Made by a program: the position numbers and the translations under genes. DNA of 64,000 nt from an uncultured Pelagibacteraceae bacterium (GTDB lineage: Bacteria; Pseudomonadota; Alphaproteobacteria; Pelagibacterales; Pelagibacteraceae). Positions 30,241 to 33,489 of this stretch are shown here, piece after piece. The first letter of the stretch is position 1, and the number at the start of each line of letters is the position of its first letter. The stretch is taken from contig CACIMN010000003.1 of assembly GCA_902587755.1 (NCBI GenBank), positions 1-64,000 on the forward strand. Reading direction: 5' to 3'. The notes below the pieces were generated by a model. The model ran no database searches. It saw nothing but the letters and a program-made list of their open reading frames with translations, and was not told where the DNA came from.

Positions 30241-30563
30241 CATATATCGTTAACGACAATTGTATTAAGTGTAAATTAACAGACTGTGTTGATGTGTGCC
30301 CAGTTGATTGCTTTTATGAAGGTAAAAATATGCTTGTAATTAAACCCGATGAGTGTATAGATTGTGGCGTTTGCGAGCCAGAATGTCCTGTCGATGCCAT
30401 AAAAGCAGACACTGAACCTGGAAGTGAAAAATGGTTAGAGATCAATAAAAAGTACTCTGAAATCTGGCCTAACATTAGCGAAAAAAAAGATCCACCAGCG
30501 GATCATGAAAAATTTAAAAATGAGCAAAATAAGTACGAAAAATATTTTAAAGAAAATCTTTAA
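30237..30563 (+). CDS. fdxA: 7Fe-8S type ferredoxin
   Basis: This 108-residue ferredoxin starts [29 protein letters not shown] and continues [16 protein letters not shown]. The cysteine spacing, with a long first loop ([14 protein letters not shown]), is that of Azotobacter-type FdxA proteins that bind one 3Fe-4S and one 4Fe-4S cluster. The charged C-terminal tail (about residues 75-108) is family-typical. Its ATG overlaps the TerB stop (ATGA) and its 3' end overlaps the start of carD by up to 59 bases in another frame. It is an electron carrier whose partner is unknown. Confidence 0.95.
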
Positions 30564-31407
30564 AAGCAAAACAAATAAAAAAGTAAAAAAAAAAGTTTCC
30601 AAAAAAAAGGTTGTAAAAGTTAAAAAATCTAAAAAAGCTAAAAGAATAATTTTAAAAAAAACAAAAAAAATTATTAAAAAAATTCCTAATAAATCAACTA
30701 AGACAAAAAAAACTATTAAAACTTCAGAAACAACAGCTGAAACGAAAGTAGATAATTTAAGAATATCAAAAACAAATGAAGTTAAACCTGAAATTAAAAA
30801 GATAAAAAAACAAGAAACTGAAAAAAGAGAGTACAAAGTTAAAGACTTTGTTGTATATCCAAAGCACGGTGTTGGCCAAATTACAGAATTCAAAAAAATT
30901 AATATCGGTGGAATTGATGTCGAAACATATGTTATAAAATTTGAAAAAGATAAAGCTAATGGAATGGTGCCTGTAAATAAGCAATCTCACTTGAGACCCT
31001 TATCAACAATCAATCAAGTTAACAAATGTATTTCAATACTTAAAAGTAAACCAAAAATAAAAAGATCGATGTGGAGTCGAAGAGCACAAGAATATGAAGC
31101 TAAAATTTCTTCTGGAAAAATATATGAATTAGCTGAAGTTGTTAGAGATTTAAATAAAGGTGATGATCTTATGGTAGATCAATCTTATAGTGAAAGACAA
31201 TTATTTGAGAAAGCTTACGAAAGAATTTTATCAGAGTTTCAAATTGTTTTGAATGTATCTTTAGAAGATACACAAAAAAAACTTGATAAAGCATTAAAAA
31301 GAAACCTAGGAAGTCAACCTAAGCCTATAACAGTTGCAAAAGCTTCTAGTGAAGAATTAAACGAAGATGAGCCGATTTCTGAAAATGACGATGCGATTGA
31401 TCAATAA
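30505..31407 (+). CDS. CarD-family RNA polymerase regulator with lysine-rich N-terminal tail
   Basis: This 300-residue protein has a CarD_CdnL_TRCF domain at about residues 111-275: [20 protein letters not shown], the RNA polymerase beta-binding Tudor-like part, then a helical DNA-binding part ([30 protein letters not shown]). About 110 residues precede it; the first 70 contain 32 lysines and resemble histone H1 tails. No ATG, GTG or TTG occurs in frame between codon 6 and the CarD domain, so the tail is almost certainly translated. Starts at 30505 or 30520 both lie inside fdxA. CarD proteins stabilise open promoter complexes. A strong terminator follows at once. Confidence 0.9.
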
Positions 31408-31448
31408 AAAAACGCTTCTCACACAAACTGCAATGAGAAGCGTTTTTT
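31407..31448. terminator. Bidirectional intrinsic terminator between carD and the basic peptide gene
   Basis: A 10-base stem, ACGCTTCTCA pairing with TGAGAAGCGT, encloses a 12-base loop. The stem is flanked by an A run on the left and a T run on the right, so a U tract follows the hairpin in either transcription direction. It begins at the last base of the carD stop codon and lies 18 bases from the stop of the convergent peptide gene. It is the clearest terminator in the window. Confidence 0.9.
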
Positions 31449-31466: not shown

Positions 31467-31559
31467 CTATTTTCTTCTTCTTTTTTTTGCTTTTTTCTTA
31501 GCTTTTTTCTTAGCTTTTTTCTTAGTTTTCTTTGCCGCTTTTTTTCTTTTCTTAGGCAT
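31467..31559 (-). CDS. 30-residue lysine/arginine-rich peptide, histone-tail-like
   Basis: The frame opens with ATG (31559-31557), preceded by the strong Shine-Dalgarno GGGAG about six bases upstream. The product starts MPKKRKKAAKKTKKK, runs through KKKA repeats and ends KKRRRK: 18 lysines and 4 arginines in 30 residues, no acidic residue, five alanines. It resembles the C-terminal tails of histone H1 or bacterial H1-like proteins and would bind DNA, RNA or the ribosome non-specifically. A consensus promoter (31613-31641), a leader dyad and a strong terminator frame it, so a real, well-expressed gene is likely despite its size. An alternative is that the RNA itself is functional. Confidence 0.7.
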   Translation of the reverse strand: MPKKRKKAAKKTKKKAKKKAKKKAKKRRRK

Positions 31560-31584
31560 CTTTAGCTCCCTTTATTTAGTTAAA

Positions 31585-31601
31585 CGAATCAAATTGATTC
31601 G
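31585..31601. promoter_or_regulatory. 17-base palindrome in the leader of the basic peptide gene
   Basis: CGAATCAA, a central A, then TTGATTCG form a perfect 8-base dyad, and GTTAA/TTAAC arms recur further out (31579-31583, 31605-31609). With the predicted promoter, transcription would begin near 31605, so the dyad would be at about +5 to +21. It could be an operator just downstream of the start or a stabilising hairpin at the 5' end of the mRNA. It stands out because the surrounding sequence is A/T only. Confidence 0.55.
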
Positions 31602-31612
31602 CTGTTAACATA

Positions 31613-31641
31613 TTTTTATTTTTTTCTTCAAGTTATGTCAA
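31613..31641 (-). promoter_or_regulatory. Sigma-70-type promoter for the basic peptide gene
   Basis: On the minus strand, TTGACA (31641-31636) matches the -35 consensus exactly. After a 17-base spacer, TAAAAA (31618-31613) matches 4 of 6 bases of a -10 box. The start would be near 31605, giving a leader of about 46 bases that contains the dyad and the Shine-Dalgarno. Perfect -35 boxes are uncommon enough in this AT-rich DNA to make the call worthwhile. Confidence 0.55.
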
Positions 31642-31758: not shown

Positions 31759-33489
31759 TTAATAAAGATTTTCTAATTGATTTTTATATTTTTCAGTAAC
31801 TTTTTTTCTTTTCACTTTCATTGTTGGAGTCATTAAACCATTTTCAATAGAAAAATTTTCATCTATTAATTGAATCTTTTTAATCTTTTCCAATAAAGTT
31901 AATTTTGTATTTATTTTTTCAATTACTTCATTAATTTTTTCTTTTTCATCTAAAAAATCTTTATTAGGCACTATTAATGCAACTAAATAATTTTTTTTAT
32001 CACCATAAACCATACATTGATCAATTTCTGGCTCATTAGTGATCATATTTTCAATTTTAGCTGGTGAAATATTATCTCCTCCAGCACTTACAATAATATC
32101 TTTTTTTCTATCAGTAATTTTTAGATAACCATCGTTTGGATCAATTTCTCCAATGTCACCTGTATGAAGCCATCCATTTATAATAACTTTGTCGGTTTCA
32201 TCCTGTTTATTCCAATACCCCAACATTACATTTTCACCCTTAACTAAAATTTCTCCATCTTCTGCAATTTTAACTTCATTACCCTTAAATGGAGGGCCTA
32301 CAGTTTCCACTTTTATTTTATGTATTGGATTGCAACTCACTACAGGCGATGTTTCTGTTAAACCATAGCCCTGAAGTGTTGGTAGTCCTATAGCATTCAA
32401 AAATTCACCTATTTCTTTATCTAGAGCACCACCACCTGAGACAAAAGCTTTTAAATTTCCACCAAATTGTTTTTTTATTTTTTTTCTAACTAATTTATCA
32501 ACAATAAAATTTAGTAATTTTTCAAAAAAAGTCATTTTTTGATTTAACAGTTTTTTTCTTCCTAAACGAATGGTTGCTTCAATTAATTTAGCTTTGAAAC
32601 CTGTTTGTTTTTTTAAATTCATGTTTATTTTGTTGTAGAGGTTCTGATAGAACCTTGGAACAGCTGTCATAATTCTAGGTTTTGCTTCAGATATATTTTC
32701 TAGAAGTTTTTCAATTTTTTCAGCGTAGAATACTTTAGCTCCTACTGCTATCTGCACAAATTGAAGGCAATGCTCATAAGAGTGAGAAAGAGGAAGCCAA
32801 GTTAAAAATACTAGTTTTGAGTTAAATAATGGTTTTAGAATTTCTATCGATCCCTCAACATTATTCAAAATTCCACCATGACTTAATATTACTCCCTTAG
32901 GATTCCCGCCGGTTCCTGAAGTATAAATAATGCATGCTGGTGAATTTCTTTTTAATTTATTATTTTCAATTTTATCTTCTGCTAATAAATTATTTTTTGT
33001 TATAGAATTATAATCTAAATATTTTTCTTTGTTATTTATATGTAAGTTATTTATTACGTTATCTATTTGATCTAGAGTAACAACTTTATTTATAAAATCT
33101 TTTTCATTAATTAAGTTATGCAATTTTTTTAACATTTCATTATTAGACACAATAACTAAGCTAGGTTCGCAATCTTCTATCAAATACTTATAATCATCTT
33201 CAATGTATGTTGTATATGCTGGTACAGTAATTCCACCAGCTAACATTATAGCCAAATCAGACACAAACCACTCAGGTCTGTTCTCTGAAACTAAAAGACA
33301 TCTATCACCTTCTTTTATATTTTCTTTAATAACTTTTGATAATTTTAATATATTCTTTTCAGTTTGTTCCCATGTATATGATTTTTTATTACTTGGATTT
33401 AGCCATTCTAAAAAAATATCTTTTTTATTTTGTTTATTTACTTGATTAACAAACAATTCGATCAAATTATTTAAATTATTTATATTCAT
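31759..33489 (-). CDS. Long-chain acyl-CoA synthetase (AMP-forming)
   Basis: This 576-residue adenylate-forming ligase contains ACIIYTSGTGGNPKGVILSH (P-loop-like motif, about residues 185-204), the long-chain-type LTWLPLSHSYEHCLQFV, GYGLTETSPVVSCNP and GWLHTGDIGEID with the DRKKDIIVSAGGDNISP hinge. The terminal catalytic lysine region (TPTMKVKRKKV) is also present. It belongs to the long-chain FACS group (FadD15-like), activating fatty acids for membrane lipids or oxidation. It is transcribed alone, after a tRNA-Leu gene on the same strand. A 351-base stretch beyond its 3' end (31408-31758) holds only the basic peptide unit and AT-rich filler. Confidence 0.92.
   Translation of the reverse strand: MNINNLNNLIELFVNQVNKQNKKDIFLEWLNPSNKKSYTWEQTEKNILKLSKVIKENIKEGDRCLLVSENRPEWFVSDLAIMLAGGITVPAYTTYIEDDYKYLIEDCEPSLVIVSNNEMLKKLHNLINEKDFINKVVTLDQIDNVINNLHINNKEKYLDYNSITKNNLLAEDKIENNKLKRNSPACIIYTSGTGGNPKGVILSHGGILNNVEGSIEILKPLFNSKLVFLTWLPLSHSYEHCLQFVQIAVGAKVFYAEKIEKLLENISEAKPRIMTAVPRFYQNLYNKINMNLKKQTGFKAKLIEATIRLGRKKLLNQKMTFFEKLLNFIVDKLVRKKIKKQFGGNLKAFVSGGGALDKEIGEFLNAIGLPTLQGYGLTETSPVVSCNPIHKIKVETVGPPFKGNEVKIAEDGEILVKGENVMLGYWNKQDETDKVIINGWLHTGDIGEIDPNDGYLKITDRKKDIIVSAGGDNISPAKIENMITNEPEIDQCMVYGDKKNYLVALIVPNKDFLDEKEKINEVIEKINTKLTLLEKIKKIQLIDENFSIENGLMTPTMKVKRKKVTEKYKNQLENLY

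Follow-up and report, generated by a model that had tools for sequence, protein, structure and literature searches.

The short reading frame that lies between carD and an acyl-CoA ligase-like gene of an uncultured Pelagibacteraceae bacterium raises the question of whether so small and so basic a product comes from a real gene and, if it does, how its translation might be controlled. The window, i.e. the whole stretch of DNA analysed, is 64,000 nucleotides long. The reading favoured here, to which a probability of about 0.75 is assigned from sequence comparison, is that of a conserved SAR11 gene for a short, probably disordered polycation, whose binding to DNA or RNA would resemble that of a free histone-H1 tail and which, within the genus of the window (g1), would be under the control of the rhtB RNA. 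The coordinates of the relevant features are collected in Table 1.

Table 1. Features of the peptide locus, its neighbours and its predicted RNA partner. Positions refer to the window, unless a contig is indicated.
Feature	Position	Strand	Remarks
carD, convergent neighbour	30505-31407	+	about 100 Lys-rich N-terminal residues ahead of the CarD domains
Hairpin terminator common to the convergent carD and peptide genes	31408-31448 (about)	.	A and T tracts on both sides
Lys/Arg-rich peptide gene	31467-31559	-	ATG frame, 30 codons plus stop; frame conserved in relatives, with synonymous excess
Codon-2 region	31549-31556	-	one mismatch (CCT in the window against GCT in the complement of the sRNA), followed by CTAAGAA, seven matching bases
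SD-to-AUG core GGGAGCTAAAGATG	31557-31570	-	GGGAG at 31570-31566, ATG at 31559-31557; predicted target of the rhtB antisense RNA
5' leader hairpin CGAATCA..TGATTCG	31585-31601	-	close to the predicted transcript start
Weak -10-like hexamer AAAAAT	31612-31617	-	from promoter scan
-35 box TTGACA	31636-31641	-	present in g1 leaders; other genera have TTGACA or TTGACT
AMP-binding (acyl-CoA ligase-like) gene	31759-33489	-	upstream of the peptide gene
rhtB antisense RNA gene	G000:C4:87688-87768	-	another contig; RF01814 81.4 bits, cut-off 55

The initial annotation had described a self-contained gene for a 30-residue, 73% basic peptide, preceded by a TTGACA box, a leader dyad and a GGGAG ribosome-binding site and followed by a bidirectional terminator, and all of these elements were confirmed. 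The product contains 18 Lys and 4 Arg, i.e. 22 basic residues out of 30; the dyad corresponds to the leader palindrome, and a gap of six bases separates GGGAG from the ATG. The TTGACA box and the AAAAAT hexamer, spaced by 18 nt, match a promoter at 10 of 12 positions, the -10 being weak; over the whole region, 8 promoter-like sites were found against a mean of 11.5 in shuffled sequences, i.e. no excess. High expression, which had been proposed as well, would be an incomplete description: the ribosome-binding site is matched by an antisense RNA, described below, so that under some conditions translation is probably kept low. Annotation may miss so short a gene, as had also been supposed; the records of the relatives are without annotation in this region. 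Comparison of the 30-mer with Pfam and NCBIfam revealed no family at E 1.

Relatives were oriented by carD and the strand opposite to it, downstream of the gene, was then read for frames. A Lys/Arg-rich frame was found at this place in 71 of 73 loci from g1, the two misses being located on contigs which stop 134 and 86 nt past carD, and in all 20 loci from eight other genera of the family (g12-g19), whose leaders carry TTGACA or TTGACT, plus CGAATCA. In the second family of the order (f2), 13 loci were fetched among 41 carD places, and the frame is present in 12, the thirteenth locus being truncated where carD ends; no such frame was seen in four carD loci from other orders. Among named Pelagibacteraceae genomes, which may coincide with those of the other counts, 79 of 80 loci contain the frame and the remaining one is a short locus. 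The search of other SAR11 genomes at this locus, which the initial annotation had proposed as a check, supports the gene.

Intact peptides range from 21 to 35 residues in g1, reach up to 58 in the other genera and extend over 40-99 residues in f2, where they begin with MEELKVIFAKA, or a close variant of it, and contain KKAAPKKK repeats. These longer forms resemble histone-H1 tails, in agreement with the likeness originally noticed for the short peptide; three of them, compared with Pfam and NCBIfam, produced chance-level matches only, and the match to a curated profile that would place the peptide in the Histone-H1-like Hc1/HC2 families was not obtained. In some f2 loci (L106-L114, L122) the homologues start with MEELK and their first codons, GGAGGAACTTAAAGTG in several of them, resemble the g1 leader sequence GGGAGCTAAAGATG, which looks like an exchange between coding and RBS sequence.

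Conservation at the codon level, a check proposed at the outset, was evaluated on the 70 g1 loci left after setting aside 3 of 73 with no RBS on their contig. The 85 close pairs compared, which are not independent, differ at 251 codons, with 159 synonymous and 92 non-synonymous changes, while random mutation would produce 18% synonymous ones. Indels disrupting the frame had been named as evidence that would speak against the gene: the frame is intact nearly everywhere, but one of the 70 g1 loci (G068) has an extra A in an A-run, resulting in a 16-residue product, and in G451, the sole g19 genome, the frame is apparently shifted in an A-run too. Because frame, RBS and leader recur at the same place in relatives, the locus is more than a chance occurrence and, on the comparative evidence, is a real gene, compact and equipped with its own signals.

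The terminator, which falls outside the span 31467-31641 originally assigned to the unit, is missing from the terminator scan list because its loop measures 12 bases and loops of 3-8 were allowed; 70 of 70 same-genus loci can form a stem of no fewer than 8 pairs at its position. The convergent neighbour deserves a description of its own. The N-terminal extension of CarD (30505-30810 in the window) is 81-106 residues long, with 34-43% Lys/Arg, in the window as well as in the fully read g1 relatives, so that a CarD with a histone-like tail adjoins the gene for a free histone-like peptide. Some genomes of the same genus (L138-L142) also encode a 225-261-residue MRPG(A/S)VLVGN... protein with a long Lys-rich tail, which was not seen in a DNA search of the own genome. 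Eleven further Lys-rich loci, fetched along with one f2 peptide locus, turned out to be different genes.

The leader palindrome was considered as an operator shared by a regulon, and this was rejected, since the CGAATC..GATTCG site is the sole one in the own genome. A slightly looser form occurs once in each of nine other genomes, at the peptide locus in eight of them; in the ninth (G004) it lies elsewhere, and the peptide locus is at a contig end. A reversed control pattern gave one match in three of the nine genomes. The spacing of the half-sites varies among relatives, and other genera keep a hairpin with a substituted 3' arm, for which reasons an RNA structure fits better than a dimer site. 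The palindrome also holds two GANTC sites, which we take to be of the CcrM type, and so do those of most g1 relatives; the second site is missing in L097-L099.

A search for the sequence around the peptide start led to a second genomic site. The pattern GGGAGCTAAANATGNC, searched in 397 genomes of the order, is present in 261, all belonging to g1, with none exceeding two copies among the matches listed. In the own genome, GGGAGCTAAANATG occurs at two places, the peptide start and G000:C4:87721-87734, and the latter sits, on the opposite strand, within a match to Rfam family RF01814, the rhtB RNA. The covariance-model score, well above the gathering cut-off of 55 bits, places this RNA within the family. 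Its hairpin folds with -17.3 kcal/mol (z -5.0) and has the loop-region sequence UUAGCCAUCUUUAGCUCCCGG, which is complementary to the Shine-Dalgarno sequence and start codon of the peptide gene; correspondingly, the strand opposite to the peptide gives a sub-threshold RF01814 match at 31533-31599 of the window (23.3 bits vs 55). A translated mini-ORF on the other strand of the rhtB locus was rejected, the frame which follows GGGAGCTAAA.ATG varying between 2 and 22 codons.

The pairing was evaluated in 60 g1 genomes containing both loci, 55 of them obtained from the RF01814 search and 5 (G182, G197, G215, G223, G254) picked for a variant; the 66 hairpins collected in all include 6 with no peptide start, which are therefore outside the 60. 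The 14-nt core, from GGGAG to ATG, shows full Watson-Crick pairing in 55 genomes, one G.U in four (G053, G084, G215, G254) and a mismatch at the outermost base in one (G223), so that no genome has more than one non-Watson-Crick position. At position -1 an A in the mRNA is accompanied by the matching RNA base in five genomes (G037, G071, G079, G307, G438), with no discordant case among the 60. On the carD tree, which includes three further A-form mRNAs with no known RNA, two changes of the RNA and four of the mRNA are required; as this corresponds to only 1-2 independent pairs, the double change alone is no significant test. Past the AUG the pairing is looser, with mismatches at +4 in 20 of the 60, at +5 in 3 and at +6 in 1; the +4 mismatch is the Pro2 form of codon 2, found in the own genome as well.

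Predicted duplexes average -36.4 kcal/mol, compared to -13.2 for shuffled mRNA, and the weakest real one (-31.3) is still below the best shuffle (-30.7); these values refer to 51 genomes and, like the stem counts reported below for 55 hairpins, predate the addition of 4 hairpins after inspection and that of the five picked genomes. Swapping partners gave a mixed result: G-form RNAs pair less favourably with A-form mRNAs (-31.1) than with G-form ones (-37.5), while A-form RNAs are equal with A-form (-33.2) and G-form mRNAs (-33.5). By comparison of the two loci, the complementarity between the peptide SD-AUG region and the rhtB loop is conserved in g1. Such a lasting match to the start site of a distant gene's mRNA is one mark of trans-encoded base-pairing sRNAs; another is a transcribed RNA which changes the translation or stability of its target, on which the promoter-like TGnTA boxes and the U-tracts described below bear.

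These data suggest that the rhtB RNA is probably a trans-encoded antisense repressor of the peptide, acting as an off-switch. Transcription of the peptide gene would start close to the hairpin of the leader, whose role may be protection of the 5' end. Encoded at another locus, the rhtB hairpin of about 47 nt would be present at the same time, and the 13 nt of its terminal loop, with their neighbours, would pair with the mRNA from the Shine-Dalgarno sequence through the AUG; the resulting 14 to about 20 base pairs should block ribosome entry. When the rhtB RNA falls, the polycation would be made. The peptide is probably disordered and most likely binds nucleic acids, as its composition and the H1-like f2 forms indicate. 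The interpretation given in the initial annotation is, overall, partly supported: DNA compaction, ribosome binding and neutralisation of polyphosphate are roles that the peptide could have and that we regard as putative, composition being what points to nucleic-acid binding.

A similar arrangement is described for Chlamydia in the available text of PMC4355289, where a hairpin loop of the IhtA RNA occludes the start codon of the mRNA for hctA, encoding the histone-like protein Hc1. In both cases a trans-encoded RNA places, or would place, a hairpin loop over the start codon of the mRNA for a small basic, histone-H1-like product. According to the same text, IhtA has three stem-loops and a 7-nt contact which does not involve the Shine-Dalgarno sequence, whereas the SAR11 pair features one hairpin and a 14-20 nt contact including it; moreover, nucleic-acid binding by the short SAR11 peptide is a prediction. 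The SAR11 pair may thus work like IhtA/HctA, a likeness of function for which no descent is claimed. On the side of the protein, the KKKA and KKAAPKKK composition is shared with the SAR11 CarD tails and with repeats of the Hc2/AlgP type, but the SAR11 product is a free peptide with no folded domain.

A more far-reaching version, which we put forward only tentatively, is that of an RNA-controlled chromatin switch: the polylysine-like peptide would be silenced by the rhtB RNA during growth and, once the RNA falls, freed to cover nucleic acids and to lower the activity of the cell. Such a switch would have arisen independently of chlamydial IhtA/HctA, next to a CarD which itself bears a histone-like tail.

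The distribution of the RNA is narrower than that of the peptide. Among 77 g1 genomes, RF01814 exceeds its cut-off in 58, and 15 of 16 high-quality ones have a match at E 0.001; at that threshold 18 of the 77 have none and, as the hairpins are found by a model which includes the loop in its consensus and would miss strongly diverged loops, genomes with such loops could be among them. No match was obtained in 14 control genomes, nor over the cut-off, with stricter filters, in 17 genomes from g12-g19, 8 from f2 and 6 from other orders. The RNA therefore arose after the peptide, or changed beyond the reach of the model elsewhere; with none over the cut-off in g12-g19 and f2, the peptide there does without the rhtB RNA. 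The weak Rfam matches (19-23 bits) of f2 and of the other genera were inspected, and their loops all lack the g1 core complement. The RBS sequence of the peptide in g12-g19 differs from that in g1, and a search for GGAGN{3,8}ATGGCTAA in 19 g12-g19 genomes revealed no second copy identical to the own peptide RBS. Masking in cis was evaluated as a stand-in outside g1 and is supported only in g14 (5 genomes), where the SD is paired at 0.99 vs 0.41 in shuffled sequences; corresponding values are 0.58 vs 0.49 in g12, 0.68 vs 0.55 in g18 and 0.49 vs 0.68 in f2. In g14 (L284-L286, L290, L291) an ACTCC in the leader can mask GGAG, paired at 0.97-0.99, perhaps another way of holding the gene down.

The same distribution bears on the possibility that the two loci form a pair of the type I toxin-antitoxin kind, in which the free polycationic peptide is harmful and the rhtB RNA is the antitoxin. 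The loci do combine a short peptide with an antisense RNA over the translation start of its mRNA and, as in IstR/tisB, the complementarity is long and the RNA is encoded away from the small-peptide mRNA. Known type I toxins, however, are mostly hydrophobic membrane peptides, like that of tisB, while the SAR11 peptide, at 73% Lys/Arg, lacks the character of a small hydrophobic, membrane-acting product. Typical toxin-antitoxin modules are not bound to one fixed place, but this gene is conserved at a single one, and it is kept in genera with no recognized rhtB RNA. The possibility is thus regarded as rather unlikely, despite the chlamydial precedent, in which the basic HctA kills E. coli if IhtA is lacking (PMC4355289, available text).

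Control may also run in the opposite direction, the peptide mRNA opening the hairpin in the 5' leader of rhtB, or both RNAs acting mutually, so as to regulate the exporter RhtB. Several properties of the hairpin are relevant here. Among the 495 stem cells of 55 hairpins, 6 are non-Watson-Crick; every one reads as G.U along the rhtB strand but as A.C along the opposite one, and these wobbles orient the hairpin on the rhtB strand. A promoter-like TGnTA, presumably as in an extended -10, begins 15-17 nt ahead of the stem in 65 of 66 hairpins, and a U-tract follows the stem in only 24. By pattern, a rhtB-like start codon lies within 25 nt after the hairpin in 52 of 66, and the 3' arm holds AGGA or AGGG in most, as leader control would have it; in the other 14, hairpin and loop are kept with no rhtB-like start within that distance. 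The available text of PMC2704228 (Meyer et al. 2009) describes a conserved bulged hairpin upstream of rhtB, with a poly-U tract in about half of the cases, and suggests a potential regulatory function or a termination signal, but also reports the element ahead of other genes, such as proC. Neighbours other than rhtB fit a free RNA, and the loop exactly matches the SD and AUG of the peptide, features against which control of rhtB by the peptide mRNA appears improbable.

Small basic ribosomal proteins such as bTHX and eL41 are similar to the peptide in length and charge, and its RBS is strong, as might be expected if it were a ribosomal or ribosome-associated protein of their sort. This is doubtful, since a length varying between 21 and 99 residues is unlike that of a part with a fixed place, and the 85-residue f2 form, compared with PDB, found a sole match at E 0.52, to a putative ribosomal protein L29. 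That the shared 14-mer is an old duplication or a common protein-binding site, with no RNA pairing, is very improbable: just two loci share it and -1 changes on the tree are few, but four of the five genomes with a non-Watson-Crick core position keep a G.U on the antisense reading, the stem wobbles fit the antisense strand only, and the RBS differs in the genera where the RNA was not found.

One of the two elements of this proposed pair is already catalogued, the rhtB element of RF01814 being the same RNA as the partner described here. The available part of PMC2704228 names no target of the element, and its main text contains no 'carD'; 'rhtB' does not occur in the available text of PMC5069720. 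No mention of the pair was found in the text consulted from one open-access library on the rhtB motif, on SAR11/Pelagibacter small RNAs and on histone-like proteins. As far as this text shows, an orphan Rfam family receives its first predicted target, and a short ORF of a streamlined ocean bacterium becomes a candidate riboregulated gene. According to the available text of PMC13198564, transcriptional regulators are relatively scarce in oligotrophs whose genomes are reduced, so that a histone-like peptide under antisense control would stand out as a circuit. If true, this would be a circuit with a close functional parallel in Chlamydia, operating in some of the most abundant bacteria of the sea.
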